Shown here piece by piece: positions 1,166 through 56,868 of a stretch of 64,000 bases of DNA. Numbering within the stretch: position 1 is the stretch's first letter; the number at the start of each line of letters is the position of its first letter. The notes under the pieces are model-generated. The model did not search any database. It was given only the letters and a program-made list of their open reading frames with translations, and had not been told where the DNA came from. The position numbers and the translations under genes were made by a program. The stretch is from Ancylobacter polymorphus (GTDB lineage Bacteria; Pseudomonadota; Alphaproteobacteria; Rhizobiales; Xanthobacteraceae): assembly GCF_030813495.1 (NCBI RefSeq), contig NZ_JAUSUI010000002.1:496001-560000 (forward strand), in the 5' to 3' direction.

Positions 1166-4100
1166 ATGAAATTCACCCGCCTGCGTCTCACCGGCTTCAA
1201 GACCTTCGTCGAGCCGACCGAAATGCTGATCGAGCCCGGCCTTACTGGCATTGTGGGCCCGAATGGCTGCGGCAAGTCCAATCTTGTTGAGGCCATGCGC
1301 TGGGTGATGGGCGAGAGCTCCTACAAGGCGATGCGTGCCGAAGGGATGGACGACGTCATCTTCGGCGGCTCCACCACGCGCCCGGCGCGCAATACCGCCG
1401 AGGTGGTGCTGGTGGTCGATAATGGCGACCGCTCGGCCCCGGCCGTGTTCAACGATGCGGACATGCTGGAAATTTCCCGCCGCATCGAGCGCGAGGCGGG
1501 TTCCTCCTACCGTATCAACGGGCGCGAGGCGCGCGCCCGCGACGTGCAGATCCTGTTCGCCGACGCCTCTTCCGGCTCGCGTTCGCCTTCCATGGTACGG
1601 CAGGGGCAGATCGGCGAAATCGTCGGCGCCAAGCCCACCGCCCGGCGCCGCCTGCTGGAAGAAGCCGCCGGCGTCGCCGGCCTGCATGCGCGCCGGCACG
1701 AGGCGGAAATGCGCCTGCGGGCGGCGGAAACCAATCTGACGCGGCTTGAGGACGTCATCGGCCAGATTTCCGGCCAGCTCGACGCGCTGCGCCGCCAGTC
1801 GCGGCAGGCCTCGCGCTACCGGGTGCTCTCCGCCGATATACGCAAGGCCGAAGCCGCACTGCTGTGGTTACGCTGGCTGGAGGCGGAGGCAGGGCTCGGG
1901 GAAGCGAGCCGGGCGCTTGATCTCGCCGTGCGCGAAGTTGCCGCCCGGACCGTGCAGCAGGGCGAAGCCGCCCGCGCCGCCGCCGTGGCCGCGCACGGCA
2001 TTCCCGCTCTGCGCGAGGCCGATGCGGCGGCCGCCGCCGCGCTTCAGCGGCTGACCCTTGCCCGTGGCGAACTCGACCGTGAAGAAGCGCGGGCCGGAGC
2101 CCGCCGGGAGGAATTGGACCGCCGCCTCGCTCAACTCGGCGGCGACATGGAGCGCGAGCGGGCACTGGAACAGGACGCGGGCGAGATGCTGGAGCGCCTC
2201 GCCCAGGAGGCCGAGGAACTCGCCATCGCCCAGGAGCAGGCGGCGCAGCTGGAAGACGAGGCGCTGGCCCGCAATGGCGAGGCGGTGGCGCGTCTTGCGG
2301 AATCCGAGCGCGCCTTTGCCGATGCGACGGCTGCCAATGCTGAAGCGACCGCGCGGCGCGGGGCGATGGAACGCGCGCTGCGCGAGGCAGGCGAGCGCCT
2401 GTCGCGGCTCGACCGCGATGTAGACGTGCTGGCGGGCCAGAAGCGGCAGCTGGAATCCCATGTCGATGCCGCCCGCCTCGACGAGCGTCGCGAGCGTGCC
2501 GAAGCGGCGCAGGACGCCTTCGCAGCCGCCGAGGCGGCGGCGCAGGAGGCCGAGAACGCCCATGCGGTGGCCCGCGCCGCGCTCGACCAGGCCCGCCGTC
2601 CGCTCACAGAGGCGGAACGGGCGGCCCAACGGCTTGATACGGAAGCGCGCACCCTCGCCAAGCTGCTGGATGTCGGCACGCCGCGGCGTTGGTCGCCGGT
2701 GCTCGACTTCATCGAGGTGGCACGGGGCTATGAGGCCGCGCTTGGCGCCGCGCTCGGCGATGATCTCGATGCACCCTCCGACAGCGAGGCGCCGGTGCAC
2801 TGGACTCTGGTCGCCCCCCTCGGCGACGCGCCGCTGCCCGAGGGCGCCGAGCCGCTTGCCGACCATGTGGTCGCACCCAAGGTGCTCGCCCGCCGGCTGG
2901 GCCAGATCGGCGTGGTCGATCGCAATGACGGCCCGCGCCTCGCCGTCCAGCTAAAGGCCGGACAACGCCTCGTCTCCCGCGAGGGCGACCTGTGGCGCTG
3001 GGACGGCCTCGTTGCCGCCGCCGACGCGCCCACCGCCGCAGCCCGGCGGCTGGCGGAGCGCAATCGCCTCGCCGATATCGAAGCGCAGCTTGAAGGCGCC
3101 CGTCTTGAAGTGACGCGGCATCGCCGCGGCCTGGAGGCGGCGGAGGCCGCGCTGCGCGCCGCCGGTGCCCGCGAAAACGCCGCCCGCGAAGCCCGCCGCG
3201 CGAGCCTGCGGGCGATGGAGGGTGCACGGGACGAACTTGCCCGTGCCGAACGCGCCGCCGCCGAGCAGTCAGCCCGGCTCGCCGCGCTCGGTACCAATCT
3301 GGCGCGGCTGCAGGAAGAGCGCGAGATTGCCGCGATAGCGCTGGAGGAAGCGCGCGCCGATATGGCCGACCAGCCTCCACCGGCGCAAGGCGAGGCGCAA
3401 CTGGCGGAGATTCGCGCCCGCGTCGCTCAGGACCGCGCGGTGCTGGCGGAAACGCGCGTGCGCGCGGATGCGCTGGTGCGCGAGCGTGACCAGCGTCTGC
3501 GGCGCCTCGCGCTCATCGCCCAGGAGCGTGCCTCCTGGGAAGCGCGGGCCGGCGGCACGGGCGCGCGCGTTGCCGCGCTCGAGGCGCGCCTCGCGGAAGC
3601 TGCCCATGAGCGCGAGGAACTGGACGATGCGCCCGTGCGCTTCGCCGCCCGCCGGCGCGCTCTGCTCGACGAGATTGCCCGCGCGGAAGCGGCGCGCCGC
3701 GAGGCGGCCGACCGGCTGGCGAGCGCCGAATCGCTGCAGGTGGAGGGCGACAAGCTCGCCCGTGCCACGCTCGACGCGCTGGCCGCCGCGCGCGAGGAAA
3801 GCGCCCGTGCCGAGGCGCGGGTCGAGGCGGCGCGCCAGCGCCGGGAGGCGCTTGCGCGTGAGATGGCGGAGGCGCTCGACGGCCCGCCTGAGACCGCCCG
3901 CGAGATCGCCGGCTTCGCACCCGATAGCCCGATGCCGGTGCTGGCGGAGCTGGAAACCGAACTCGGCCGGTTGAGGGCCGACCGCGAGCGGCTCGGCGCG
4001 GTGAATCTGCGCGCCGAAGAGGAACTGGCCGAGATCGAGACCCAGCAGAAGGGCCTCACCGGCGAGCGCGACGATCTCACCGAAGCGATAAAGCGGCTGC

Positions 4101-26092: not shown

Positions 26093-26193
26093 TTAGATCA
26101 TTTCACTGTTTCACGGAAACAGTGAAATGATCTAATTCGTTGTTTTATCGCGTTTTCTTCACGCGAACCGGTATCCACTTCGCTCGAAAACGC
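26093..26193. repeat. Palindromic repeat family A, copy 1
   Basis: A perfect 20-bp stem (26093-26112 with 26116-26135) carries the loop ACG. It is followed by a conserved tail from TTGTTTTATCGCG to CTCGAAAACGCT. The same unit recurs at 49609 with changed stem bases that keep pairing. It lies between the convergent CorC-like and pilin genes. Confidence 0.85.
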
Positions 26194-43829: not shown

Positions 43830-43843
43830 TTGATGTGGATCAA
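43830..43843 (+). promoter_or_regulatory. FixK/FNR box of the cbb3 oxidase operon
   Basis: The perfect 14-bp site TTGATGTGGATCAA (TTGAT-N4-ATCAA) is centred 90 bases before the ccoN start. FixK2/FnrL-type regulators use exactly this site to switch on cbb3 oxidase at low oxygen. It is the only perfect copy I found in the window. Confidence 0.9.
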
Positions 43844-43926: not shown

Positions 43927-45636
43927 ATGACGCAGCTACAAAGCTCCGCTGGACGCGGCTCGGGTGCCACCGAGCCGGGCGTCGATCAGAGCGGAAAGAA
44001 GATGACCTTCGGCGAGGGCGGCCTCGCCTTCGTCTTCGCGGTCCTGGCGCTGTCCTGCATCACCGTCGCGGCAAAGACGCACGATGCCGCCTATGCCTTC
44101 CACGCCTATCTCTCGGCCTTCGCCAGCCTGGCGGCGGTGTTCGTCATCCTCAACCGCTATGTGGACCGCCCGGCGGCCCTGCCGGCGCTGGAGATCGACG
44201 GCAAGCCGAACTACAATTTCGGCCCGGTGAAGTTCGCCACCATTGCGGCGATGTTCTGGGGCATCGCCGGCTTTCTGGTCGGCGTCATCATCGCCTTCCA
44301 GCTCGCCTTCCCCTGGCTGAACCTCGACCTGCCCTGGACCGCCTTCGGCCGGCTGCGGCCGCTGCACACGTCGGCGGTGATCTTCGCCTTTGGCGGCAAC
44401 GTGCTGATCGGCACCTCGTTCTATGTGGTGCAGCGCACCTCGCGCGCCCGCCTCGCCGGCTATCTCGCGCCGTGGTTCGTGGTGCTGGGCTATAACTTCT
44501 TCATCGTCATCGCCGGCACGGGCTATCTCCTGGGCATCACCCAGGGCAAGGAATATGCCGAGCCGGAATGGTACGCCGATCTGTGGCTGACCGTGGTGTG
44601 GGTGACCTATCTGCTCGTGTTCCTCGCCACGCTGTGGCGCCGCAGGGAACCGCACATCTACGTCGCCAACTGGTTCTATCTCGCCTTCATCGTCACCATC
44701 GCGATGCTGCATCTCGGCAACAACGCGACGATCCCGGTCTCGGTGTTCTCGCCCAAATCCTACATCGTCTGGGCGGGCGTGCAGGATGCGATGGTGCAGT
44801 GGTGGTACGGCCATAACGCGGTCGGCTTCTTCCTCACCGCCGGCTTCCTCGCCATCATGTACTACTTCATCCCCAAGCGGGCCGACCGGCCGGTCTATTC
44901 CTACCGGCTGTCGATCATCCACTTCTGGGCGCTGATCTTCATCTATATCTGGGCCGGCCCGCACCACCTGCACTACACCGCGCTGCCGGACTGGGCGCAG
45001 ACGCTGGGCATGACCTTCTCCATCATCCTGTGGATGCCCTCCTGGGGCGGCATGATCAACGGCCTGATGACGCTCTCGGGCGCCTGGGACAAGCTGCGCA
45101 CCGACCCGGTGCTGCGCATGATGGTGGTGTCGGTCGCATTCTACGGCATGTCGACCTTCGAAGGCCCGATGATGTCGGTGAAGGCGGTGAACTCGCTTTC
45201 CCACTACACCGACTGGACCATCGGCCATGTGCATTCCGGTGCGCTCGGCTGGGTCGCCTACATCTCCTTCGGCGCCATCTACTGCCTCGTGCCGTGGCTC
45301 TGGCAGAAGCGGGAACTGTATTCGCTCCGCCTCGTCAACTGGCACTTCTGGATCTCGACCATCGGTATCGTCTTCTACATCTCGGCGATGTGGGTGGCGG
45401 GCATCCTGCAGGGCCTGATGTGGCGCGCCTACACCTCGCTCGGCTTCCTCGAATACTCCTTCATCGAGACGGTCGAGGCGATGCACCCCTTCTACATCAT
45501 CCGCGCGGTGGGTGGCGTGCTGTTCCTGATCGGCGGGCTGATCATGGCCTTCAACCTGATCATGACCATCCGCCAGCCGGATCTGGCGGAAGCCGGCACC
45601 GGCGTCCCCAACCCGTCCCTCGTGCCGGCCGAGTGA
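43927..45636 (+). CDS. ccoN: Cytochrome cbb3 oxidase catalytic subunit I
   Basis: CcoN (FixN) is the haem b/b3-CuB subunit that reduces oxygen at high affinity. The haem and copper ligands lie in [44 protein letters not shown] and [15 protein letters not shown], and the cbb3-type Tyr is expected in the [11 protein letters not shown] region. Twelve or more helices are seen. The ATG at 43927 follows GGAGGG and gives 569 residues; the frame upstream of it overlaps the promoter. It is the first gene of ccoNOQP. Confidence 0.97.
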
Positions 45637-45648
45637 GGAGGCAAGATC

Positions 45649-46404
45649 ATGGCTGAAGCCGTCGCTCCGAAGAAATCCCTCTGGGCCAAGCACGCCTTTC
45701 TCGAGAAGAACTCGATCTGGCTGGTCATCGGCATCCTGCTCGTGGTCGCCATTGGCGGCCTCGTGGAGATCGTGCCGCTGTTCTACCTCAAAAGCACCAT
45801 CGAGAAGGTCTCCGGCATCCGTCCCTGGACGCCGCTGGAACTCGCCGGCCGCAACATCTATGTCCGCGAGGGCTGCTACAACTGCCACTCGCAGATGGTG
45901 CGCCCGCTGCGCGACGAGGTGGAACGCTACGGCCACTACTCGCTGGCGGCCGAGAGCATGTATGACCGCCCGTTCCAGTGGGGCTCCAAGCGCACCGGGC
46001 CGGACCTCGCCCGCGTCGGCAACAAATATTCCGACGAATGGCAGCGCCAGCACCTCGCCGATCCGCGCTCGGTGGTCCCGGGCTCGATCATGCCCGGCTA
46101 CCCCTTCCTGGCGCAGACCCCGCTCAAGACCTATGAGGTCGCCGACGACATGAAGGTGAACGCCGTGCTCGGCGTGCCCTATTCCGAGGCGATGGTCACG
46201 GAAGCGCTGGCGGACCTTCGGGCGCAGGCCAACCCCGACGCCGATGCCGACGGGCTGAAGGAACGCTATCCCGGCGCGCAGCAGCGCGACTTCGACGGCA
46301 ATCCCAAACTGCTGTCGGAAGCGGATGCGCTGATCGCCTATCTCCAGGCGCTCGGCACCATGGTCGACTTCAAGCTCTACGACGACAAGGCAAACATCCG
46401 CTGA
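45649..46404 (+). CDS. ccoO: Cytochrome cbb3 oxidase mono-haem subunit II
   Basis: This is a membrane-anchored cytochrome c subunit. There is one N-terminal helix (about 22-45, [26 protein letters not shown]), then the haem c site CYNCH (76-80) in [20 protein letters not shown]. The expected axial Met is in the [11 protein letters not shown] segment. The 251 residues are the usual length. It begins 12 bases after ccoN. Confidence 0.97.
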
Positions 46405-46414
46405 GGAGGCTGGG

Positions 46415-46570
46415 ATGAACGAGACCTATCGCGCCCTCGCCGAATTCGCTCAGACCTGGGGGCTTCTCTACTTCGTCGGCATCTTCCTCTGCGTGCTCGC
46501 CTATGCGCTCTCGCCGCGGCGCAAGGCGCAGTTCGAGGACGCTGCCCGCATGCCGCTGCGCGAGGATTGA
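46415..46570 (+). CDS. ccoQ: Cytochrome cbb3 oxidase subunit CcoQ
   Basis: This 51-residue protein begins MNETYRALAEFAQTWGLLYF, continues VGIFLCVLAYALSP and ends RRKAQFEDAARMPLRED. It has one membrane helix followed by a basic and acidic tail, the standard FixQ/CcoQ form, which stabilises the oxidase. The ribosome site GAGGAGG lies 7 bases before the ATG. It was found by reading between ccoO and ccoP. Confidence 0.93.
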   Translation: MNETYRALAEFAQTWGLLYFVGIFLCVLAYALSPRRKAQFEDAARMPLRED

Positions 46571-46572
46571 TC

Positions 46573-47457
46573 ATGGCCGAGCATCACAAGAACGAAGTCG
46601 ACGCCGTCACCGGCGTCTCGACGACCGGCCACGAGTGGGACGGCATTCGCGAACTGAACAACCCGCTGCCGCGCTGGTGGCTGTGGACCTTCTACGCCAC
46701 CATCGTGTGGGCCTTCCTCTACTGGATCGCCTACCCGGCCTGGCCGCTCGTCTCCGGCTACACGTCAGGCGTGCTCGGCTGGAAGTCGCGCGAGGCGGTG
46801 CAGGTGCAACTCGCGGACCTGCGCGTCCAGCGCGGCGCCTTCGCCGAGAAGCTGGAAGCCGCCTCGCTCGAACAGATCGAGGCCAGCCCCGAACTTCTGG
46901 CCTTCGCCCGCGCTCAGGGCCGCGCCGCCTTCGGCGACAATTGCGCCCCGTGCCATGGCTCGGGTGCCGCCGGCTCCAAGGGTTATCCGAACCTGAATGA
47001 CGACGACTGGATGTGGGGCGGCTCGCTGGAACAGATCCAGCAGACCATCCTGCACGGCATCCGCTCCACCGATGCCGACGCCCATGTCGGCGACATGCCG
47101 GCCTTCGGCCGCGACGGCCTGCTGCAGCGTCCGGAAATCGTGGCGGTGGCGGACTATGTGCGCTCGCTCTCCGACCTGCCGGTGCCGAAGGGCGTGACGC
47201 CCGACCTCGCCAAGGGCAAGGAAGTGTTCGCCGCCAATTGCGCCGCCTGCCACGGCGCCGACGGCAAGGGCAATATCGAGCTTGGCGCGCCCAATCTCAC
47301 CGACGGCATCTGGCTCTACGGTTCGGACCGCGACAGCATCATCGCCACCCTGACCAATGGCCGCGCCGGCATCATGCCGGCCTGGGCGGGGCGTCTCGAC
47401 CCGACCACCATCAAGGCCCTCACCGTCTATGTGCATGCGCTCGGTGGGGGACAGTAG
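46573..47457 (+). CDS. ccoP: Cytochrome cbb3 oxidase di-haem subunit III
   Basis: This di-haem cytochrome c feeds electrons to CcoO. An N-terminal cytosolic tail with HEWDGIRELNNPLPRWWLWTFYAT leads into one membrane helix, then come two haem c sites, CAPCH (124-128) and CAACH (223-227), with axial Met residues in GDMPAFG and GIMPAWAG. The ATG is at 46573, two bases after the ccoQ stop; the TTG at 46567 would overlap ccoQ and is not needed. It has 294 residues. Confidence 0.97.
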   Translation: MAEHHKNEVDAVTGVSTTGHEWDGIRELNNPLPRWWLWTFYATIVWAFLYWIAYPAWPLVSGYTSGVLGWKSREAVQVQLADLRVQRGAFAEKLEAASLEQIEASPELLAFARAQGRAAFGDNCAPCHGSGAAGSKGYPNLNDDDWMWGGSLEQIQQTILHGIRSTDADAHVGDMPAFGRDGLLQRPEIVAVADYVRSLSDLPVPKGVTPDLAKGKEVFAANCAACHGADGKGNIELGAPNLTDGIWLYGSDRDSIIATLTNGRAGIMPAWAGRLDPTTIKALTVYVHALGGGQ

Positions 47458-47485
47458 CGCGCGCACCCTGACGGGTTGAGGCCAT

Positions 47486-47527
47486 GCGGCGGGGCGTCTC
47501 AGCGGCGTCCCGCCGCATAAGCATTTT
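47486..47527 (+). terminator. Intrinsic terminator between ccoP and ccoG
   Basis: An 8-bp GC stem GCGGCGGG / CCCGCCGC (47486-47493, 47509-47516) with a 15-base loop is followed after a short A-rich gap by five T. It probably ends or attenuates the ccoNOQP transcript before the assembly genes. No second FixK box was seen before ccoG. Confidence 0.6.
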
Positions 47528-47618
47528 TCCGCCCGGCAAGCCCCGGATCAACGCTCCCCGCGCACGGGTTTAGAAAGCCTCCATGAGAGGCGCAGAGCGC
47601 ACGGTTTCGGGGACCGAC

Positions 47619-49088
47619 ATGAACATGGCGACCAAGGTGGAACGGCTCGACGAGCCCGAATATGACGACGATGCCCCGCTTTACGAGGCCCGGCGCAAGA
47701 TCTACCCCATCGCCGTCCACGGCACGTTCCGCAAGATCAAGTGGACGCTGCTCATCGTCACCCTCGGCATCTATTATCTCCTGCCCTTCCTGCGCTGGGA
47801 CCGCGGGCCCAACGCCCCCTCGCAGGCGGTGCTGGTCGACCTCGCCAATGGCCGGTTCTATTTCTTCTTCATCGAAATCTGGCCGCAGGAAATCTATTAC
47901 GTCACCGGGCTTCTGATCCTGGCCGCCCTCGTGCTGTTCCTGATGAACGCGGTGGCCGGGCGGCTGTGGTGCGGCTATCTCTGCCCGCAGACCGTGTGGA
48001 CCGACCTGTTCCAGGCCATTGAGCGCATGGTGGAAGGCGACCCGCGCGAGCGGCGCGAGAAGCTGAAGACCGCCTCGCGCGGCCGGCGCGCCTTTGAGGC
48101 GGCGTCCAAGCACACGCTGTGGCTGATGGTGGCGTGGTGGACCGGCGGCGCCTGGGTGCTGTATTTCGCCGACGCGCCGACGCTGGTGTGGCAGCTGTTC
48201 ACCGGCACCGCGCCGATGGTGGCCTATCTCTGGATCGCCATACTGACCTTCACCACCTATGTGCTCGCCGGCCATATGCGCGAGCAGGTGTGCACCTATA
48301 TGTGCCCCTGGCCGCGCATCCAGGCGGCGCTCACCGACGAATACGCCTTCAACGTCACCTATCGCTACGATCGCGGCGAACCGCGCGGCTCGTTCAAGAA
48401 GACCGAGGCGCTGCGCGCGGCGGGCGTGCCGGCGGGTGACTGCATCGACTGCAAGCAATGCGTCGCCGCCTGCCCGACGGGCGTCGATATCCGCCTCGGC
48501 AGCCAGCTCGCCTGCATCCAGTGCGGCCTGTGCATCGACGCCTGCGACACGGTGATGAACAAGGTGGGCCGCCCCACCGGGCTGATCGCCTACGACACCG
48601 AGATGAATGTCGAGCGCCGCATGAAGGGGCTGGCACCCGTCACCAAGGTGCTGCGCGCCCGTACCCTGCTCTATGCCGGCCTGATCGTCATCGTCGGCGG
48701 CATCATGGTGGCGACGCTGGCGATGCGCGGCTCGGAAGGCGTGTCAGTCATCCATGACCGCAACCCGCTGTTCGTGCGGCTCTCCGACGGCTCGCTGCGC
48801 AATGCCTACACGCTGCGCATCGTCAACAAGCAGTCGCTGCCGCGCCGCTTCGCCATCGCGGTGGACGGCGTGCCGGAGGCGCGGCTGGAAGTGGTGGGCG
48901 GCATTTCCGTGACCGAGAACGGCCATCCCGTGGTCGAGGTCGGGCCGGACCAGACCTATGAGCTGCGGGCGCTGGTTTCCACCTCCGCCAAGCTGCCGGC
49001 CAATGCCTCGCTGCCGGTCACTTTCTCCGTCACCGACGTGGTCGGCGGCGAGACCACGACCGCTCCCGACCATTTCAAGGGCCCCTGA
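47619..49088 (+). CDS. ccoG: Cbb3 oxidase assembly protein CcoG (FixG)
   Basis: This membrane iron-sulphur protein reduces Cu(II) for CuB-centre assembly. It has five or so helices; NapH-like motifs RLWCGYLCPQTVW and VCTYMCPWPRIQ; two ferredoxin-type clusters, CIDCKQCVAACPTG and CIQCGLCIDACD; and a C-terminal periplasmic Ig-like domain (IVNKQSLPRRFAIAVDGVPEARLEV). The ATG at 47619 with GGGGA upstream gives 489 residues; upstream in-frame starts are less likely. Confidence 0.95.
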   Translation: MNMATKVERLDEPEYDDDAPLYEARRKIYPIAVHGTFRKIKWTLLIVTLGIYYLLPFLRWDRGPNAPSQAVLVDLANGRFYFFFIEIWPQEIYYVTGLLILAALVLFLMNAVAGRLWCGYLCPQTVWTDLFQAIERMVEGDPRERREKLKTASRGRRAFEAASKHTLWLMVAWWTGGAWVLYFADAPTLVWQLFTGTAPMVAYLWIAILTFTTYVLAGHMREQVCTYMCPWPRIQAALTDEYAFNVTYRYDRGEPRGSFKKTEALRAAGVPAGDCIDCKQCVAACPTGVDIRLGSQLACIQCGLCIDACDTVMNKVGRPTGLIAYDTEMNVERRMKGLAPVTKVLRARTLLYAGLIVIVGGIMVATLAMRGSEGVSVIHDRNPLFVRLSDGSLRNAYTLRIVNKQSLPRRFAIAVDGVPEARLEVVGGISVTENGHPVVEVGPDQTYELRALVSTSAKLPANASLPVTFSVTDVVGGETTTAPDHFKGP

Positions 49089-49109: not shown

Positions 49110-49607
49110 ATGGCCACGCTCATGACCGCGCGCGACGACGGCAAGGTCCGGCCGCTCACCGGCCGGACGGTGCTGATGTGCTTCATCGCCTTTTTCGGCG
49201 TGGTGTTCACCGCCAATTTCTTCCTGGTGCGGGCGGCGCTGAGCACCTTCGGCGGCGTGGAGACGGAAAGCTCCTACAAGGCCGGGCTCGCCTTCAAGGC
49301 CGAGAGCGAGGCCGCCGCCGCGCAGGCCGCGCGCCACTGGCAGGTCGACGCCCATGTCGAGCCGGGCCGGCTCGATGTCGCCGCCCGCGACGCCGCCGGC
49401 CGGCCGCTCACCGATGTCGCGCTCAGCGCCACGCTGCGCCACCCCACCGACCGCCGCTTCGACGTGACGCTCGATCCGGTCAAGGTCGGCGCCGGCCAGT
49501 GGCGGGCGAGCGACACCATCAATGCCGGCCAGTGGGAGCTGGTGATCGAACTCTCCCGCGACGGCGAGCGGCTGTTCCGCTCCACCAACCGCGTCGTCAT
49601 CCGTTAG
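49110..49607 (+). CDS. ccoH: Cbb3 oxidase assembly protein CcoH (FixH)
   Basis: CcoH is a small membrane protein needed for stable cbb3 oxidase. One helix at about 20-42 (RTVLMCFIAFFGVVFTANFFLVRAAL) is followed by TESSYKAGLAFKAESEAAAAQAARHWQV and a periplasmic beta domain, the FixH pattern. It has 165 residues. It starts 21 bases after ccoG and is followed by a palindromic repeat before ccoI. Confidence 0.93.
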   Translation: MATLMTARDDGKVRPLTGRTVLMCFIAFFGVVFTANFFLVRAALSTFGGVETESSYKAGLAFKAESEAAAAQAARHWQVDAHVEPGRLDVAARDAAGRPLTDVALSATLRHPTDRRFDVTLDPVKVGAGQWRASDTINAGQWELVIELSRDGERLFRSTNRVVIR

Positions 49608-49608
49608 G

Positions 49609-49710
49609 TCGCTTCACCGTTTCGCGGAAACGGTGAAGCGATTCTCGTTCTTTGTTTTATCGCGTTTTCTTCACGCAATCCGGTATTCACTTCGCTCGAA
49701 AACGCTCCAG
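49609..49710. repeat. Palindromic repeat family A, copy 2, inside the ccoGHIS operon
   Basis: TCGCTTCACCGTTTC / GAAACGGTGAAGCGA is a perfect 15-bp stem with loop GCG (49609-49641), followed by the same tail as the copy at 26093 (TTGTTTTATCGCG to CTCGAAAACGCT). Stem bases that differ from copy 1 are changed on both arms. It fills the gap from the ccoH stop almost to the ccoI ribosome site. Confidence 0.88.
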
Positions 49711-49724
49711 GCCGGAGGCATCCC

Positions 49725-51983
49725 ATGGGCGCGCAGGCTCTTTCTCTCCCGGCGACCGCTTCCCTGCCCGCCACGCCGGTGGCGCAGGACTATTCGCTGT
49801 TCCTGCGCCGCGATCCGGCCGGGCAGGCGGAAATGGCCTTCGCGGTGGAGGGCATCGACTGCGCCGCCTGCATCGACGAGATCGAGGATGGCTGCGAGGC
49901 GCTGCCCGGCATCGCCCGGGCGCGGCTGAACTACACTACCCACCGCCTCACCATCGGCTGGGAGGCGAAGGCCGAGCCTGCCCCGGCGCGGGTGCTGGAG
50001 GCGCTGGCCAAGGCCGGCTACCGCGCCTATCCCTTCGAGGCCGACCGGCTGGAGGAGATCGACAACTCCACCTCGCGGCATCTGCTGCGCTGCCTCGGCG
50101 TCGCCGGCTTCGCGGCGATGAACATCATGCTGCTCTCGGTGTCGGTGTGGTCGGGCAATGTCACCGACATCACCCCGGAGACGCGCGATTTCTTCCACTG
50201 GCTCTCGGCGCTGATCGCGCTGCCCGCCGCCGCCTATGCCGGCCAGCCCTTCTTCCAGAGCGCGTTGCGGGCGCTGAAGGCGCGGTCGCTCAACATGGAT
50301 GTGCCGATCACGCTCGGCGTGCTGCTGGCGCTCAGCGTCTCGGTGTTCGAGACGCTGCACCATGCCGAGCACGCCTATTTCGATTCGGCTGTCATGCTGC
50401 TGTTCTTCCTGCTGGCGGGGCGCTATCTCGACCACGCGATGCGCCGGCGCACGCGGGCGGAGGCGGGCAATCTCGCCGCGCTGAAGGCGGTCACCGCCAA
50501 CCGCATCGAGCCGGACGGGCGGCTCGTCACCGTGCCCGCCGCCGCGGTGAAGCCGGGCGACGAGGTGATGCTGCGGGCGGGCGAGCGCGCGCCGGTGGAC
50601 GGCATCGTGCTGTCCGGCACGGCGGCGGTGGATGAAAGCCTCGTCACCGGCGAGACGCTGCCGCGCAGCCTCAGCGTCGGCGCCACGGTGCATGCCGGCA
50701 GCCTCATCCATGACGGCGTGCTGCGGCTGAAGACCGTCGCGGCCGGCGAGGACACCTTCCTCGACGAGATCGAGCGGCTGCTCGACAAGGCCTCGACCGC
50801 GCGCGGGCGCTATATCCGCCTCGCCGACCGCGCCGCCCGGCTCTACGCGCCGATGGTCCACACCACGGCGCTGCTGGCGCTTTTCGGCTGGCTCATCGCC
50901 GGTGCCTCGCTGCACCAGGCGGTGCTGATTGCGGTGGCGGTGCTCATCATCACCTGCCCCTGCGCGCTGGCGCTGGCCGTGCCGGCGGTGCAGGTGGTGG
51001 CGGCGGGCACGCTGATGCGCGCCGGCATGCTGCTGCATTCCGGCGACACCTTCGAGCGCCTCGCCGAGATCGACACCGTCGCCTTCGACAAGACCGGCAC
51101 GCTGACCCTGCCGGAGCCGAGCCTTTCCGACGCGGGCGATGTGCCGGCGCCGCTGCTCGCCGCCGCCGCCCGGCTGGCGCTGGCCAGCACCCACCCGCTG
51201 GCGCGGGCGATCGCCGCCGCGCACCCCGACGCACGGCCGCTCGACACTGTGCGGGAAGTGCCCGGCGCGGGGGTGGAGGCGGAGATCGACGGGGTGACGG
51301 CCCGGCTCGGCAGCCCGGCCTTTTGCGGCTGCGAGGCGCTCGCGGCCGAACGTGCCGCCCTGAGCCCTGAGGCCTCGCTGGTGGCGGTGCGGCTGGGGGA
51401 AGCCTGCGCCGTGCTCGACATTCGCCAGGCGCTGCGCCGCGATGCCAGGGCGGTGATCGACGATTTGCGCGTCGCCGGGCTGAAGGTGGTGCTGCTCTCG
51501 GGCGACCGGCGCGCGGCGGTGGCAGCGGTGGCGGGCGAACTCGGCGTCACCGACTGGTGGGCGCAGATGCGGCCGGGCGACAAGATCGCGGTGCTGGAGA
51601 GCCTCGACGCCAAAGGGCACGGCGTGCTGATGGTGGGCGACGGCATCAATGACGCACCCTCGCTCGCCAGCGCCCATGTCTCGCTTTCCCCGATCAGCGC
51701 CGCCGATGTGACGCGGGCGCAGGCCGACGCGGTGTTTCTCGGCGAGAAGCTGGCCCCTGTCGCCATCGCGCTGAAGGTGGCGCGCCGGGCGCGGCATCTG
51801 ATGCGGCAGAATTTGATGATCGCCGTGGTCTATAATCTCATCGCCGTGCCGCTGGCGGTGGCGGGCTACGTCACCCCGCTGGTGGCGGCGCTGGCCATGT
51901 CCGGCTCGTCGGTCATCGTCACGCTGAACGCGCTCCGCGCGCGGCAGGGCGGCTTTGCCGCCGGGGAAAAGGAGGCGGCATGA
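49725..51983 (+). CDS. ccoI: Copper-transporting P-type ATPase CcoI (FixI)
   Basis: CcoI pumps copper across the inner membrane for the oxidase CuB centre. An N-terminal heavy-metal domain with CAAC at 46-49 (GIDCAACIDEIEDG) is followed by six to eight helices, the transport motif CPC (411-413) in IITCPCALALAVPAVQ, the phosphorylated Asp455 in DKTGTLTLPEP, and GDGINDAPSLASA. The HMA-P1B class is clear. The ribosome site GGAGG is 6 bases before the ATG. It overlaps ccoS by 4 bases. Confidence 0.95.
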   Translation: MGAQALSLPATASLPATPVAQDYSLFLRRDPAGQAEMAFAVEGIDCAACIDEIEDGCEALPGIARARLNYTTHRLTIGWEAKAEPAPARVLEALAKAGYRAYPFEADRLEEIDNSTSRHLLRCLGVAGFAAMNIMLLSVSVWSGNVTDITPETRDFFHWLSALIALPAAAYAGQPFFQSALRALKARSLNMDVPITLGVLLALSVSVFETLHHAEHAYFDSAVMLLFFLLAGRYLDHAMRRRTRAEAGNLAALKAVTANRIEPDGRLVTVPAAAVKPGDEVMLRAGERAPVDGIVLSGTAAVDESLVTGETLPRSLSVGATVHAGSLIHDGVLRLKTVAAGEDTFLDEIERLLDKASTARGRYIRLADRAARLYAPMVHTTALLALFGWLIAGASLHQAVLIAVAVLIITCPCALALAVPAVQVVAAGTLMRAGMLLHSGDTFERLAEIDTVAFDKTGTLTLPEPSLSDAGDVPAPLLAAAARLALASTHPLARAIAAAHPDARPLDTVREVPGAGVEAEIDGVTARLGSPAFCGCEALAAERAALSPEASLVAVRLGEACAVLDIRQALRRDARAVIDDLRVAGLKVVLLSGDRRAAVAAVAGELGVTDWWAQMRPGDKIAVLESLDAKGHGVLMVGDGINDAPSLASAHVSLSPISAADVTRAQADAVFLGEKLAPVAIALKVARRARHLMRQNLMIAVVYNLIAVPLAVAGYVTPLVAALAMSGSSVIVTLNALRARQGGFAAGEKEAA

Positions 51984-52180
51984 GCGTGCTGCTCTATCTG
52001 GTGCCGGCGGCGCTGAGCCTCGGCCTGCTCGGGCTGGTGGCCTTCCTCTGGTCGCTGCGCAGCGGTCAGTATGACGATATCGAGGGCGCGGCGGTGCGCG
52101 TGCTGTCCGATGACGATCTGCACGAGGCGGCGCATGAGCGCCCGGACCGCAACGCCCTGACCGGCGAGCCGCGGGCATGA
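51980..52180 (+). CDS. ccoS: Cbb3 oxidase maturation protein CcoS (FixS)
   Basis: The 66-residue protein has one N-terminal helix (MSVLLYLVPAALSLGLLGLVAFLWSLRSGQYDDIEGAAVRVL), with the family's SGQYDDIEGAA motif directly after it. It is required for cofactor insertion into CcoN. It is coupled by ATGA overlaps both to ccoI upstream and to the MFS gene downstream. Confidence 0.95.
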   Translation: MSVLLYLVPAALSLGLLGLVAFLWSLRSGQYDDIEGAAVRVLSDDDLHEAAHERPDRNALTGEPRA

Positions 52181-53334
52181 GCGCGAGTGATTTTTTCGAC
52201 GCTGAAGCGGAAGCGGCCCGCGCCGGCCGGCTCGGCTGCGCCTGCCCGGAAGACGCGCCGCGCGCGCTGCGCCGTTCGCTCGGCATCGGGCGGCTGGCCG
52301 GCGGCTTCGCCCTCATAGTGCTGGCGCAGGCGCTGACGCTGGGCGCGCTGCCGCTCGCCGGGGCGATGCTGGCCCCGCGCCCGGAGCTCGCCGCCCTGCC
52401 ACTCGCCGCCCTGCTGCTCGGCGCGGCGCTGGCGAGCCTTCCCGCCAGCTTTCTGCTCGACACGTTCGGCCGGCGTGCCGCCTTCGCGCTCGGCGCCAGC
52501 CTCGGCGTCGCCGGCGGGCTGATGGCGGCCTATGCGATGGCGCTCGGCGCCTTCCCGATGCTGGTGCTGGGCGCCGCCTGGCTCGGCGCGGCGCAGGGTT
52601 TCGGCATGTTCTACCGCCACGCGGCGGCGTTCGGCGCCGCGACCGGGGCGCGGGCGGGCATGGTGGCGCGCCTCATCGGCGCCGGGGCGCTGGCGGGCCT
52701 TGCCGGGCCGCTGCTGGCGGGGGCGGCGGAAGCGGCCTTCGCACCCTACACCTTCGCCGGCACGCTGCTGCTCGCCGCGCTGGCGCAGCTCGGTGCGCTG
52801 GCTTTCGCCGTGCTGCTGCCCGAGGCGCGCTTTTCCCATGCCGATCTCACCGTGGAGGCGATGACCGTCGCGGCCCCAGCCCCGCGCCCCGCGCCGCTGG
52901 CCTGGCGGGCGCTGATCCTGCCGACGCTGATCGGCGCGCTGGCTTGGGGGGCGATGACGTCAGCCATGGCCGGCGCGCCGCTGTCGCTGGCCGGCTGCGG
53001 CGTCGGCGTGCCGCTGATCTCGGGCGTCGTCGCCTGGCATGTGGTGGCGATGTATGCGCCGGCGCTGGCCGGCGGGGTGCTGGCGCGGTGGATCGGCGCG
53101 CCGCCGCTGGCACTGCTCGCCTTGGCGCTGTGCCTCGGCGCGGCACTCGCCGTGGGGTGGGCGACCGACGCGGTGATGATCTCTGCCGCCTTTCTCACGG
53201 TCGGCGCCGGCTGGGCGCTGGCGAGCCTTGCCACCACGTTGATGCTGCATGGCGCGGGCACGCCGTCCCGGCTGCAACTCGCCGCCCATGACGGCCTGCT
53301 GCTCGGCGCCGCGCTGCTCGGCGTGCTGGTCTAG
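52177..53334 (+). CDS. MFS transporter, CcoA-like copper importer candidate
   Basis: The 385-residue protein has about 12 hydrophobic segments and the MFS loop motif LLDTFGRRAAF. CcoA, the MFS copper importer needed for cbb3 oxidase in Rhodobacter capsulatus, depends on an MxxxM motif and an HxxxM motif 28 residues later. This protein has MTSAM at 260-264 and HVVAM at 288-292, exactly the same spacing. A CAC motif at residues 21-23 adds thiols near the N-terminus. Its start overlaps ccoS by 4 bases, so it is co-translated with the copper-handling genes. The importer role is inferred from motif and context. Confidence 0.8.
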   Translation: MSASDFFDAEAEAARAGRLGCACPEDAPRALRRSLGIGRLAGGFALIVLAQALTLGALPLAGAMLAPRPELAALPLAALLLGAALASLPASFLLDTFGRRAAFALGASLGVAGGLMAAYAMALGAFPMLVLGAAWLGAAQGFGMFYRHAAAFGAATGARAGMVARLIGAGALAGLAGPLLAGAAEAAFAPYTFAGTLLLAALAQLGALAFAVLLPEARFSHADLTVEAMTVAAPAPRPAPLAWRALILPTLIGALAWGAMTSAMAGAPLSLAGCGVGVPLISGVVAWHVVAMYAPALAGGVLARWIGAPPLALLALALCLGAALAVGWATDAVMISAAFLTVGAGWALASLATTLMLHGAGTPSRLQLAAHDGLLLGAALLGVLV

Positions 53335-53348
53335 CCCTCACAGCTCCC

Positions 53349-53383
53349 ATCATCCCGGACGGCGCCGGCCGATCCGGGATGAC
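53349..53383. repeat. Repeat family B, half copy
   Basis: ATCATCCCGGACGGCGCCGG followed by CCGATCCGGGATGAC forms one long hairpin, matching the left half of the other family B copies. It lies right after the ccoNOQP-GHIS-MFS gene block and may terminate it. Confidence 0.75.
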
Positions 53384-53460: not shown

Positions 53461-56400
53461 ATGTTCACGCGGCTGATGACGGCACGGCGCTTCGCGCCGC
53501 TGTTCTGGTGCCAGTTTTTCGCGGCGTTCAACGACAATTTCGTGAAGAACGCCATGGCGCTGCTGATCCTTTACGGTATCGCCCATGTGAATGGCGGCGC
53601 GCTGGTGACGCTGGCGGGCGGCGTGTTCATCCTGCCCTTCTTCCTGTTCTCCTCGCTCGGCGGCCAGCTTGCCGACCGCTACGACAAGTCGCTGATCGCC
53701 CGGCGGGTGAAGTTCGCCGAAATCTGGATCGTGCTGATCGCCAGCGCCGGCTTCGTCATCCAGTCGATCCCGCTGCTGTTCGTCGGCCTGTTCCTCATGG
53801 GCACGCTGAGCGCGCTGTTCGGGCCGGTGAAATACGGCATCCTGCCCGACCACCTCGCCAAGGACGAGCTGGTCTCCGGCAATGCGCTGATCGAAATGGC
53901 GACCTTCGCCGCCATTCTCGGCGGCACGGTGGGCGGGGCGCTGGCCTTCACCCATACCGGCGAATGGGCGGTGGCCGGCTTCACCTTCGTGCTCGCCGTC
54001 ATCGCCTGGCTGTCCGCCCGCGCCATCCCCCCGACGCTGGCCGGCGCGCCGGACCTGAAGATCGACCCCAACATCTGGCGCAGCACGATGACGCTGCTCG
54101 CCGATATCCGCGCCGAGACGCCGATCTGGCGCGGGGCGCTGATCGTCTCCTGGTTCTGGCTGGTCGGCGGCGTGGTGCTCTCGCTGCTGCCCACCCTGGT
54201 GAAGGACAATATCGGCGGGCTGGAAAGCGTCGTCACCCTGTTCCTGGTGCTGTTCACCATCGGCGTCGCCATCGGCTCGACGCTGGCGGCGAAACTGTCG
54301 GAGGGGCGCATCCTGCTGGCGCTGGTGCCGGCGGCGGGGCTGCTGATGGGCGTGTTCGCGCTCGATCTGGCGCTGCTCATGGGCACGCTCGCCCCCGCCG
54401 CGCAGCCGATCGGCTGGTACGACTTCCTCACCTCGGGCGCGGGCGTGCACGCCGCCATCGGGCTGATCGGCCTTGCGGCGGCCGGCGGCGCCTTCGTGGT
54501 GCCGACCTTCGCCTTCGTGCAGGCGGCGGCGGGCGAGGACCGGCGCGCCCGGGTGATCGCCGGCAATAATGTGCTCAACGCCGCCTTCATGGTGGCGGGG
54601 GCGGTCATCGTCGCCGCGCTGCAATTCGCCGGCTTCACCGCCCCGGCGCTGCTCGGGCTGATCGGCGCGGCGAGCCTCGTCGTCGCCATCCTCGCCGGCC
54701 GCGCCTTTCAGGGGCAGGTGCTGCGCGACCTGATCAAGCTGGTGTTCCGGGTGCTGTTCCGGGTCGAGGTGACGGGGGCGGAGCATCTGAAAGCCGCCGG
54801 CCCCGGCTCGGTGATCGCCATCAACCATGTGAGCTTTCTCGATGCGCCGCTGATCATGGCGCTACTCGACAATGACCCGGTCTTCGCCGTCGACCGCGCC
54901 ATTGCCGAAGCCTGGTGGGTGAAGCCCTTCCTCAAGCTGGTGCGCGCCTTCCCGCTCGACCCGACCAAGCCGATGGCGACCCGCGACCTGATCCGCCAGG
55001 TGCAGCAGGGCGAGCAATTGGTGATCTTCCCCGAGGGGCGCATCACCGTCACCGGCTCGATCATGAAGATCTATGACGGCTCGGCGCTGATCGCCGACAA
55101 GGCGGACGCCCCCGTGGTGCCGGTGCGCATCGAGGGGCTGGAGCAGACCTATTTCTCCCGCCTCGACGGCCACCAGACCCGCAAGCGCCTTTTTCCCAAG
55201 GTCCGCGTCACCATCCTGCCGCCGCGCAAGCTGAAGGTCGACAAGGAACTGTTCGGCCGCAAGCGCCGGCGGGCGGCGGGCGCGGCGCTGTATGACGTGA
55301 TGAGCGATCTCGTCTTCGAGACCAGCCACACCAATGTCACCATCTATCAGGCGGTGGAGGACGCGGCGGTGCGGCTCGGCATGAAGCGCATCGTGCTGGA
55401 AGACCCGCTCGGCACCATCCTGTCCTATCGCAAACTGCTGCTCGGGGCGAAGATCCTCGGCGACAAGCTGGCGCGGGAGACCGCGCCGGGCGAGAAGGTC
55501 GGCGTGCTGCTGCCCAACGCCGCCGGCATCGCCGTGGTGCTGATGGGGCTCTCGCGCCATGGCCGCGTGCCGGTCATGCTCAACTACACCGCCGGCGCCA
55601 CCAATCTCGTCATCGCCTGCAAGGCGGCGCAGGTGAAGCTGGTGGTCGCCTCGCGCGCCTTCATCGAGAAGGCGCGGCTGGAGGCGGAGGTGGCCGAGCT
55701 GGAAAAGCATGTGCGGGTGCTGATGAGCGAGGATATCCGCGCTTCCGTCACCACGCCGGACAAGATCCGCGCCATGCTGCCGCTGCCCGCGCCCAAGCCC
55801 GCCCACCCTGATGACCCGGCCTTCGTGCTGTTCACCTCAGGCTCGGAAGGCACGCCGAAGGGCGTCGTGCTCTCCCACCGCAACATCCTCACCAATGTGG
55901 CGCAGGTGGCGGCGCGGATCGACTTCTCCCCCGCCGACATCATGTTCAACGTGCTGCCCGTGTTCCATTCCTTCGGCCTCACCGGCGGGCTGGTGCTGCC
56001 GATGGTGTCGGGGCTGAAGACCTATCTCTACCCCTCGCCGCTGCACTACCGGATCATCCCGGAACTGGTCTACGCCACCAACGCCACCGCCATTGTCGGC
56101 ACCGACACCTTCCTCATGGGCTATGCCCGCACCGCCAACCCCTATGATTTCCGCTCGCTGCGCTTCGTGGTGGCCGGCGCCGAGCCGGTGAAGGCGGAAA
56201 CGCGGCGGGTGTGGATGGAGAAGTTCGGTCACCGCATTCTGGAAGGCTACGGCGTCACCGAATGCGCGCCGGTGCTGGCGGTGAACACGCCGATGTTCAA
56301 CCGCGTCGGCACGGTGGGCCGCATGCTGCCGGGCATCCATCACCGGCTGGAGACCATGGCCGGCATTGAGGAAGGCGGGCGGCTGCAGGTGCGCGGGCCG

Positions 56401-56868
56401 AATGTGATGCTGGGCTATCTCCGCGCGGAGAAGCCCGGCGTGATCGAGCCGCCGGAGCATGGCTGGTACGACACCGGCGACATCGTCAGCTTTGACGAGG
56501 AAGGCTTCGTCGCCATTCGCGGCCGGGTGAAGCGCTTCGCCAAGATTGCCGGCGAGATGATCTCGCTCGCCGCCATCGACGCCATGGTGGCGACACTGCG
56601 GCCCGATGCCGAGCATGTCGCCGTGGCGGTGCCGGATGCGCGGCGGGGTGAGCGCATCATCCTCATGACCACGGCGCCCGACCTCACCCGCGCCGCGCTT
56701 CAGGCCTATGGCCGCGAGCGGGCGGTGACCGAGCTGATGATCCCGGCGGAAATCCTGCGCATGGACGTGTTGCCGCTGCTCGGTTCGGGCAAGGTGGACT
56801 TCACCAAGGCGCGCGGCATCGCGCTGGAAATGCTCGCCGCCCGCGCGCCGGCCGGAGACGGGGCATGA
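53461..56868 (+). CDS. Aas-like fusion: MFS + PlsC acyltransferase + acyl-ACP/CoA ligase
   Basis: Three domains are joined in 1135 residues. An LplT-like MFS transporter (1-400, FAAFNDNFVKNAMALLILYGI, KYGILPDHL) comes first. It is followed by a 1-acyl-glycerol-phosphate acyltransferase (about 430-620, INHVSFLDAPL with the HX4D site, and IFPEGRITVTG). An AMP-forming ligase follows (650-1130, FVLFTSGSEGTPKGVVLSHRNI, YGVTECAPVLAVN, GWYDTGDIVSFDEEGFV). Together they could import lysophospholipid and re-acylate it with an activated fatty acid, that is, membrane lipid repair. A TetR gene overlaps the 3' end by 4 bases. Confidence 0.92.
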   Translation: MFTRLMTARRFAPLFWCQFFAAFNDNFVKNAMALLILYGIAHVNGGALVTLAGGVFILPFFLFSSLGGQLADRYDKSLIARRVKFAEIWIVLIASAGFVIQSIPLLFVGLFLMGTLSALFGPVKYGILPDHLAKDELVSGNALIEMATFAAILGGTVGGALAFTHTGEWAVAGFTFVLAVIAWLSARAIPPTLAGAPDLKIDPNIWRSTMTLLADIRAETPIWRGALIVSWFWLVGGVVLSLLPTLVKDNIGGLESVVTLFLVLFTIGVAIGSTLAAKLSEGRILLALVPAAGLLMGVFALDLALLMGTLAPAAQPIGWYDFLTSGAGVHAAIGLIGLAAAGGAFVVPTFAFVQAAAGEDRRARVIAGNNVLNAAFMVAGAVIVAALQFAGFTAPALLGLIGAASLVVAILAGRAFQGQVLRDLIKLVFRVLFRVEVTGAEHLKAAGPGSVIAINHVSFLDAPLIMALLDNDPVFAVDRAIAEAWWVKPFLKLVRAFPLDPTKPMATRDLIRQVQQGEQLVIFPEGRITVTGSIMKIYDGSALIADKADAPVVPVRIEGLEQTYFSRLDGHQTRKRLFPKVRVTILPPRKLKVDKELFGRKRRRAAGAALYDVMSDLVFETSHTNVTIYQAVEDAAVRLGMKRIVLEDPLGTILSYRKLLLGAKILGDKLARETAPGEKVGVLLPNAAGIAVVLMGLSRHGRVPVMLNYTAGATNLVIACKAAQVKLVVASRAFIEKARLEAEVAELEKHVRVLMSEDIRASVTTPDKIRAMLPLPAPKPAHPDDPAFVLFTSGSEGTPKGVVLSHRNILTNVAQVAARIDFSPADIMFNVLPVFHSFGLTGGLVLPMVSGLKTYLYPSPLHYRIIPELVYATNATAIVGTDTFLMGYARTANPYDFRSLRFVVAGAEPVKAETRRVWMEKFGHRILEGYGVTECAPVLAVNTPMFNRVGTVGRMLPGIHHRLETMAGIEEGGRLQVRGPNVMLGYLRAEKPGVIEPPEHGWYDTGDIVSFDEEGFVAIRGRVKRFAKIAGEMISLAAIDAMVATLRPDAEHVAVAVPDARRGERIILMTTAPDLTRAALQAYGRERAVTELMIPAEILRMDVLPLLGSGKVDFTKARGIALEMLAARAPAGDGA

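Follow-up and report, generated by a model that had tools for sequence, protein, structure and literature searches.

In Rhizobiales, CcoA-like proteins without TM12 that carry both copper motifs and adjoin ccoNOQP-ccoGHIS were described by Khalfaoui-Hassani et al. (2018), and the joint working of importer and CcoI was already suggested at that time (PMC5829832). Zhang et al. (2019) named the same Rhizobiales group cluster 11B and placed it apart from CcoA (PMC6362234). In R. capsulatus CcoA, the copper motifs are M233xxxM237 and H261xxxM265; M233 and H261 are essential, and C247 matters for function (PMC8406296). Although CalT-O, CalT-R, and CalT-A are copper importers, a ccoA mutant is not rescued by any of them (PMC6362234); the presence of a copper site is therefore no proof of service to the cbb3 oxidase. 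Here, a 64,000-nucleotide stretch of the 4.7 Mb genome of Ancylobacter polymorphus (Xanthobacteraceae, Hyphomicrobiales), referred to below as the window, was compared with these systems. On its plus strand, ccoNOQP, ccoG, ccoH, ccoI, and ccoS are followed by calT, which is the location described for cluster 11B (Table 1).

Table 1. Features of the cbb3 gene cluster and of calT in the window
Feature	Coordinates	Strand	Basis
Perfect FNR/FixK-type box TTGATGTGGATCAA upstream of ccoN	43830..43843	+	Only exact match in window
ccoNOQP structural genes; ccoN start inferred at 43927	43927..47457	+	ORFs; gene order as in relatives
Terminator-like hairpin, 15 pairs, between ccoP and ccoG	47484..47518	+	Hairpin scan
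ccoG	47583..49088	+	TIGR02745, E 1.8e-151
ccoH (FixH)	49110..49607	+	Profile match
Terminator-like hairpin, 17 pairs, T-rich tail, between ccoH and ccoI	49607..49643	+	Hairpin scan
ccoI, copper P-type ATPase, one HMA domain (CAAC)	49725..51983	+	Profile matches
ccoS	51980..52180	+	TIGR00847, E 1.1e-23
ATGA, overlap of ccoS stop and calT start	52177..52180	+	Sequence
calT, 11B-type, MFS protein, 385 aa	52177..53334	+	ORF; Pfam MFS_1; model with 11 predicted TM helices
Codons of C21-A22-C23 within the conserved N-terminal GRLxCxCP stretch	52237..52245	+	Sequence, alignments
MTSAM, residues 260-264, TM7 copper motif	52954..52968	+	Residue positions, alignment
C274, TM7-TM8 loop, place of R. capsulatus C247	52996..52998	+	Alignment
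HVVAM, residues 288-292, TM8 copper motif	53038..53052	+	Residue positions, alignment
Stable hairpin after calT, few T after stem	53350..53383	+	z -3.5

Family placement and copper motifs of the window protein

The window protein scored barely above the cut-off of the Pfam MFS_1 family (33.8 versus 33.4 bits), no NCBIfam model matched it, and a search by sequence for a solved structural relative found none. Its closest named relatives, with 86-91% identity, come from Ancylobacter species, in keeping with membership in Rhizobiales. To place it more closely, a profile (A1) built from 23 close relatives was run on genomes at three taxonomic levels (289 from the class, 397 from the order, and 199 from the family). 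The scores split into two clear groups, with complete close relatives at E < 1e-90 and the rest mostly between ca. 1e-40 and 1e-65. When the host genome was searched with the 11B profile at E up to 0.01, the window gene alone was recovered, although the genome contains 34 MFS_1 matches; there is no second CalT in this genome. With a profile built from 53 ordinary CalT proteins, the window protein scored 173 bits, and none of eight other MFS proteins from this genome exceeded 27.6 bits.

In the tree, the close relatives (11B) formed one clade (support 99/100) and the ordinary CalT proteins another (95/90). Their union stood apart from other MFS proteins in the best tree with support of 48/26, which is weak owing to the very long outgroup branches. 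The cysteine fingerprint of CcoA was matched by none of the sampled CalT proteins, and the tree is thus one without true CcoA. An AlphaFold model (pLDDT 83.5, pTM 0.84) had an MFS fold, matched by comparison with the PDB, with 11 TM helices instead of the 12 of CcoA, and in the alignment the ordinary CalT proteins extended ca. 37-59 residues past the C-terminus of the window protein, where TM12 is missing. The periplasmic C49 and C367 of CcoA are likewise absent: the window protein ends at residue 385, and the position of C367 would be 394 (first motif Met +134). The gene had originally been predicted to encode a CcoA-like copper importer. Profile scores, motifs, and genomic context uphold the relation to CalT, but identity with CcoA itself is not supported, since a separate clade and the lack of TM12 agree with cluster 11B and not with cluster 1, which holds CcoA. 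Judged by the published description of cluster 11B, the window protein appears to match that Rhizobiales group.

The copper motifs were found as predicted, with MTSAM starting at residue 260 in TM7 and HVVAM at residue 288 in TM8, an offset of 28 residues that equals that of R. capsulatus CcoA. Shuffling the window protein 200,000 times produced M-x3-M-x23-H-x3-M in 26 cases (ca. 1e-4, or about 1 in 7,700), and eight other MFS proteins encoded in the host genome lacked the M/M/H/M pattern even when loose spacing was allowed. M260, C274, H288, and M292 were invariant in 85 homologue rows, and M264 was present in 84 of them. The four motif residues are conserved in the 11B clade and in ordinary CalT proteins alike, both motifs being present in 53 of the 53 ordinary proteins compared. 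The G-R-R motif of the TM2-TM3 loop is also retained in the alignment.

Linkage to the cbb3 genes and the question of a single transcript

The 11B relatives were gathered by protein alone, with genomic context disregarded. All 36 members with flanks from the profile searches lay behind ccoI-ccoS, versus none of 52 ordinary CalT genes (of the 53 compared, the remaining one came from another set of loci), and a protein-pattern scan placed 48 of 49 relatives behind ccoS, the contig of the remaining one being cut; the two counts are not independent, since the pattern-scan and profile sets overlap in some genomes. The proposed 4-base overlap of calT with ccoS is present as ATGA, and ccoI and ccoS overlap in a similar way. 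A start codon overlapping the stop codon upstream of the 11B gene (ATGA, GTGA, or TTGA) was retained in 45 of 50 loci, which supports translational coupling to ccoS. We conclude that calT is clearly tied to ccoI-ccoS. The linkage as such is not new, since the location of 11B genes beside ccoNOQP-ccoGHIS has been published (PMC5829832, PMC6362234).

Two further observations concern gene neighbourhoods. On a metagenome contig (L045), an 11B gene lies close to one for an ordinary CalT, which is on the opposite strand (approximate positions 3-1037 and 2426-3700). Downstream of calT in the window (53461-56868), a 1135-aa protein is encoded whose sequence suggests an MFS domain joined to an acyltransferase and an AMP-binding ligase in a single chain; it is followed by a TetR-like gene, and the apparent pair is retained in Ancylobacter relatives.

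The original prediction also put copper import, reduction by CcoG, and delivery by CcoI on one transcript. As stated, this is not supported for this genome: the cluster contains two terminator-like hairpins, one in the ccoP-ccoG interval and one in the ccoH-ccoI interval, which weaken the claim. Terminator-like sites numbered 13, versus 4.4 in shuffles, so single sites are weak evidence; these two hairpins are by far the strongest of the 13. The ccoP-ccoG hairpin was also found in 4 of 42 relatives (loci L009, L010, L013, and L015). The ccoH-ccoI hairpin, a perfect-looking inverted repeat, was found in none of the 42 relatives, and the gap that contains it measures 117 bases, versus ca. 10-80 in the closest relatives. 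It may lower the expression of ccoI-ccoS-calT in this A. polymorphus strain. The idea that it is a dispersed repeat was dropped, its core occurring once in the genome. A palindrome at 26103-26125, TCACTGTTTC...GAAACAGTGA, resembles the core with one change per arm. The stable hairpin after calT is the probable end of the unit.

A conserved cysteine pair at the N-terminus

Residues 15-24 of the window protein read RAGRLGCACP, and C21 and C23 within this stretch are two of its cysteines, the others being C274 and C319. R15, G17, C21, and C23 are invariant across the 11B clade in alignments A1 and A2, and in a wider alignment all 83 clade rows that reach this far have Cys at both positions. Among 53 ordinary CalT proteins, Cys was found in the first of the two columns in no case and in the second in two, and no C-x-C pair was present. 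The CxC stretch was not used as a seed in the pattern scan that supplied part of the alignment. A simple regular expression caught the CxC context in 64 of 85 rows only, because the residues preceding the pair vary, and the aligned columns are the better count. The earlier suggestion that the N-terminal CAC is a possible copper site is plausible, and this conservation gives it considerably more support. The cysteines studied in R. capsulatus CcoA lie elsewhere (PMC8406296), and the term "CxC" is absent from the main text of PMC6362234 and PMC5829832; the conserved pair thus appears to be undescribed.

Further columns that separate the two clades in the alignment are H148 for Phe, W257 for Tyr, and H371 for Asn. 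In the standard MFS topology, the N-terminus is inside. By this topology, C21, C23, H148, and H371 would all be on the cytosolic side and, facing the cytosol, may form an exit path; in the model, the CxC tail falls in a low-confidence part (pLDDT < 50). CopZ of R. capsulatus explains only part of the copper loading of CcoI, and another donor has been proposed (PMC8475189), which makes a donor role for the CxC tail of the importer attractive. In its full form, the proposal is that 11B proteins are an 11-helix CalT-related variant whose invariant GRLxCxCP tail relays Cu(I) from the inner exit straight to CcoI; uptake and re-export of copper for cbb3 would then be one physical unit with no soluble chaperone. 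We regard this as possible but doubtful.

Two replacement ideas were set aside. Three HMA domains occur in the host genome, each within a long frame (772-914 aa), and a free-standing CopZ-like HMA gene was not found in it at E up to 0.01. Among the matches listed, judged by eye, free-standing HMA genes were about equally rare in genomes with ordinary CalT only; the presence or absence of CopZ therefore does not separate the two groups, and replacement of CopZ by the CxC tail was rejected. Replacement of the second N-terminal metal site of CcoI (N-MBS1) by the tail was rejected as well: CcoI beside 11B genes has a single CxxC wherever the locus is readable (a few are not), and N-MBS1 is also missing from the most similar CcoI proteins in genomes that have no 11B gene.

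Proposed function and comparison with known systems

The window protein is best explained as a Rhizobiales 11B-type, CalT-related copper importer that would serve the adjacent cbb3 oxidase together with CcoI, a reading to which we assign a probability of ca. 80%. The sequence, the clade, the motif conservation, the linkage, and the predicted 11-helix MFS fold are results of the analysis; from them we infer that copper is the substrate, that it moves inwards, that the protein is dedicated to cbb3, and what the CxC pair does. In the proposed scheme, periplasmic copper would pass through a site formed by M260 and M264 of TM7 and H288 and M292 of TM8 to the cytosol. There, C21 and C23, most likely facing the cytosol, could take up Cu(I) as it leaves the importer and transfer it to the CAAC site in CcoI. 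CcoI would pump cytosolic copper back out for insertion into CuB of the cbb3 oxidase, whose genes, ccoNOQP, are adjacent, and the start/stop overlap that couples calT to ccoI-ccoS would match the supply by the importer to CcoI.

Of the alternatives, the one that survives best, albeit as an unlikely one, is that the protein imports copper for cuproproteins generally and that its position beside ccoGHIS reflects shared low-oxygen regulation. In R. capsulatus, ordinary CalT proteins bring in copper but do not serve cbb3, and such proteins also occur in genomes without cbb3 (PMC6362234); as the only CalT of its genome, the window protein may have to serve every cuproenzyme. Yet all members of the clade with readable context lie behind ccoS, a closer association than general copper import would call for. 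Loss of ca. 40 C-terminal residues relative to ordinary CalT, the 11 helices of the model, the added CxC tail, and the constant linkage to CcoI and CcoS could instead point to a protein that no longer transports alone and acts as a copper-binding assembly factor or a docking partner of CcoI. We consider this quite improbable, since the G-R-R motif, both copper motifs, C274, and the MFS fold are all retained. Transport of some other substrate for cbb3 assembly (a different metal, or a compound related to haem or thiols) is hardly credible: the protein is far removed from the CalT proteins that have been tested (mean identity 27%, no tested CalT being equally distant), but the M/M/H/M ligands and their spacing are those required for copper in CcoA (PMC8406296).

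The arrangement of calT with the cbb3 genes is thus already known, and what is added here is the conserved N-terminal CxC and a caution about the transcript. An importer that is co-translated with CcoI and bears a conserved CxC tail offers a direct mutational test of the hand-off from importer to ATPase, and such a test would have little background in this genome, since neither a second CalT nor a free-standing HMA chaperone was found in it.

Among the known systems, the RfnT-like proteins CalT-O, CalT-R, and CalT-A share the copper motifs with the window protein, and copper import has been demonstrated for them; they differ in having 12 helices and other gene neighbourhoods and in not restoring cbb3 in a ccoA mutant. 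R. capsulatus CcoA (CalT cluster 1) has the same offset between MxxxM and HxxxM, and its C247 corresponds to C274 of the window protein, both being at first motif Met +14; service to cbb3 is the supposed common function. However, CcoA has 12 TM helices, its gene lies elsewhere in the genome, in an alkA/ypfH neighbourhood, its functional C49 and C367 have no counterpart in the window protein, and its cysteines (49, 109, 225, 247, and 367) include no N-terminal CxC. From the published description of Rhizobiales cluster 11B no difference was found, the published main text being silent on the N-terminal CxC, and the window protein shares with this cluster the gene position, the order Rhizobiales, the C-terminal truncation, and both copper motifs.
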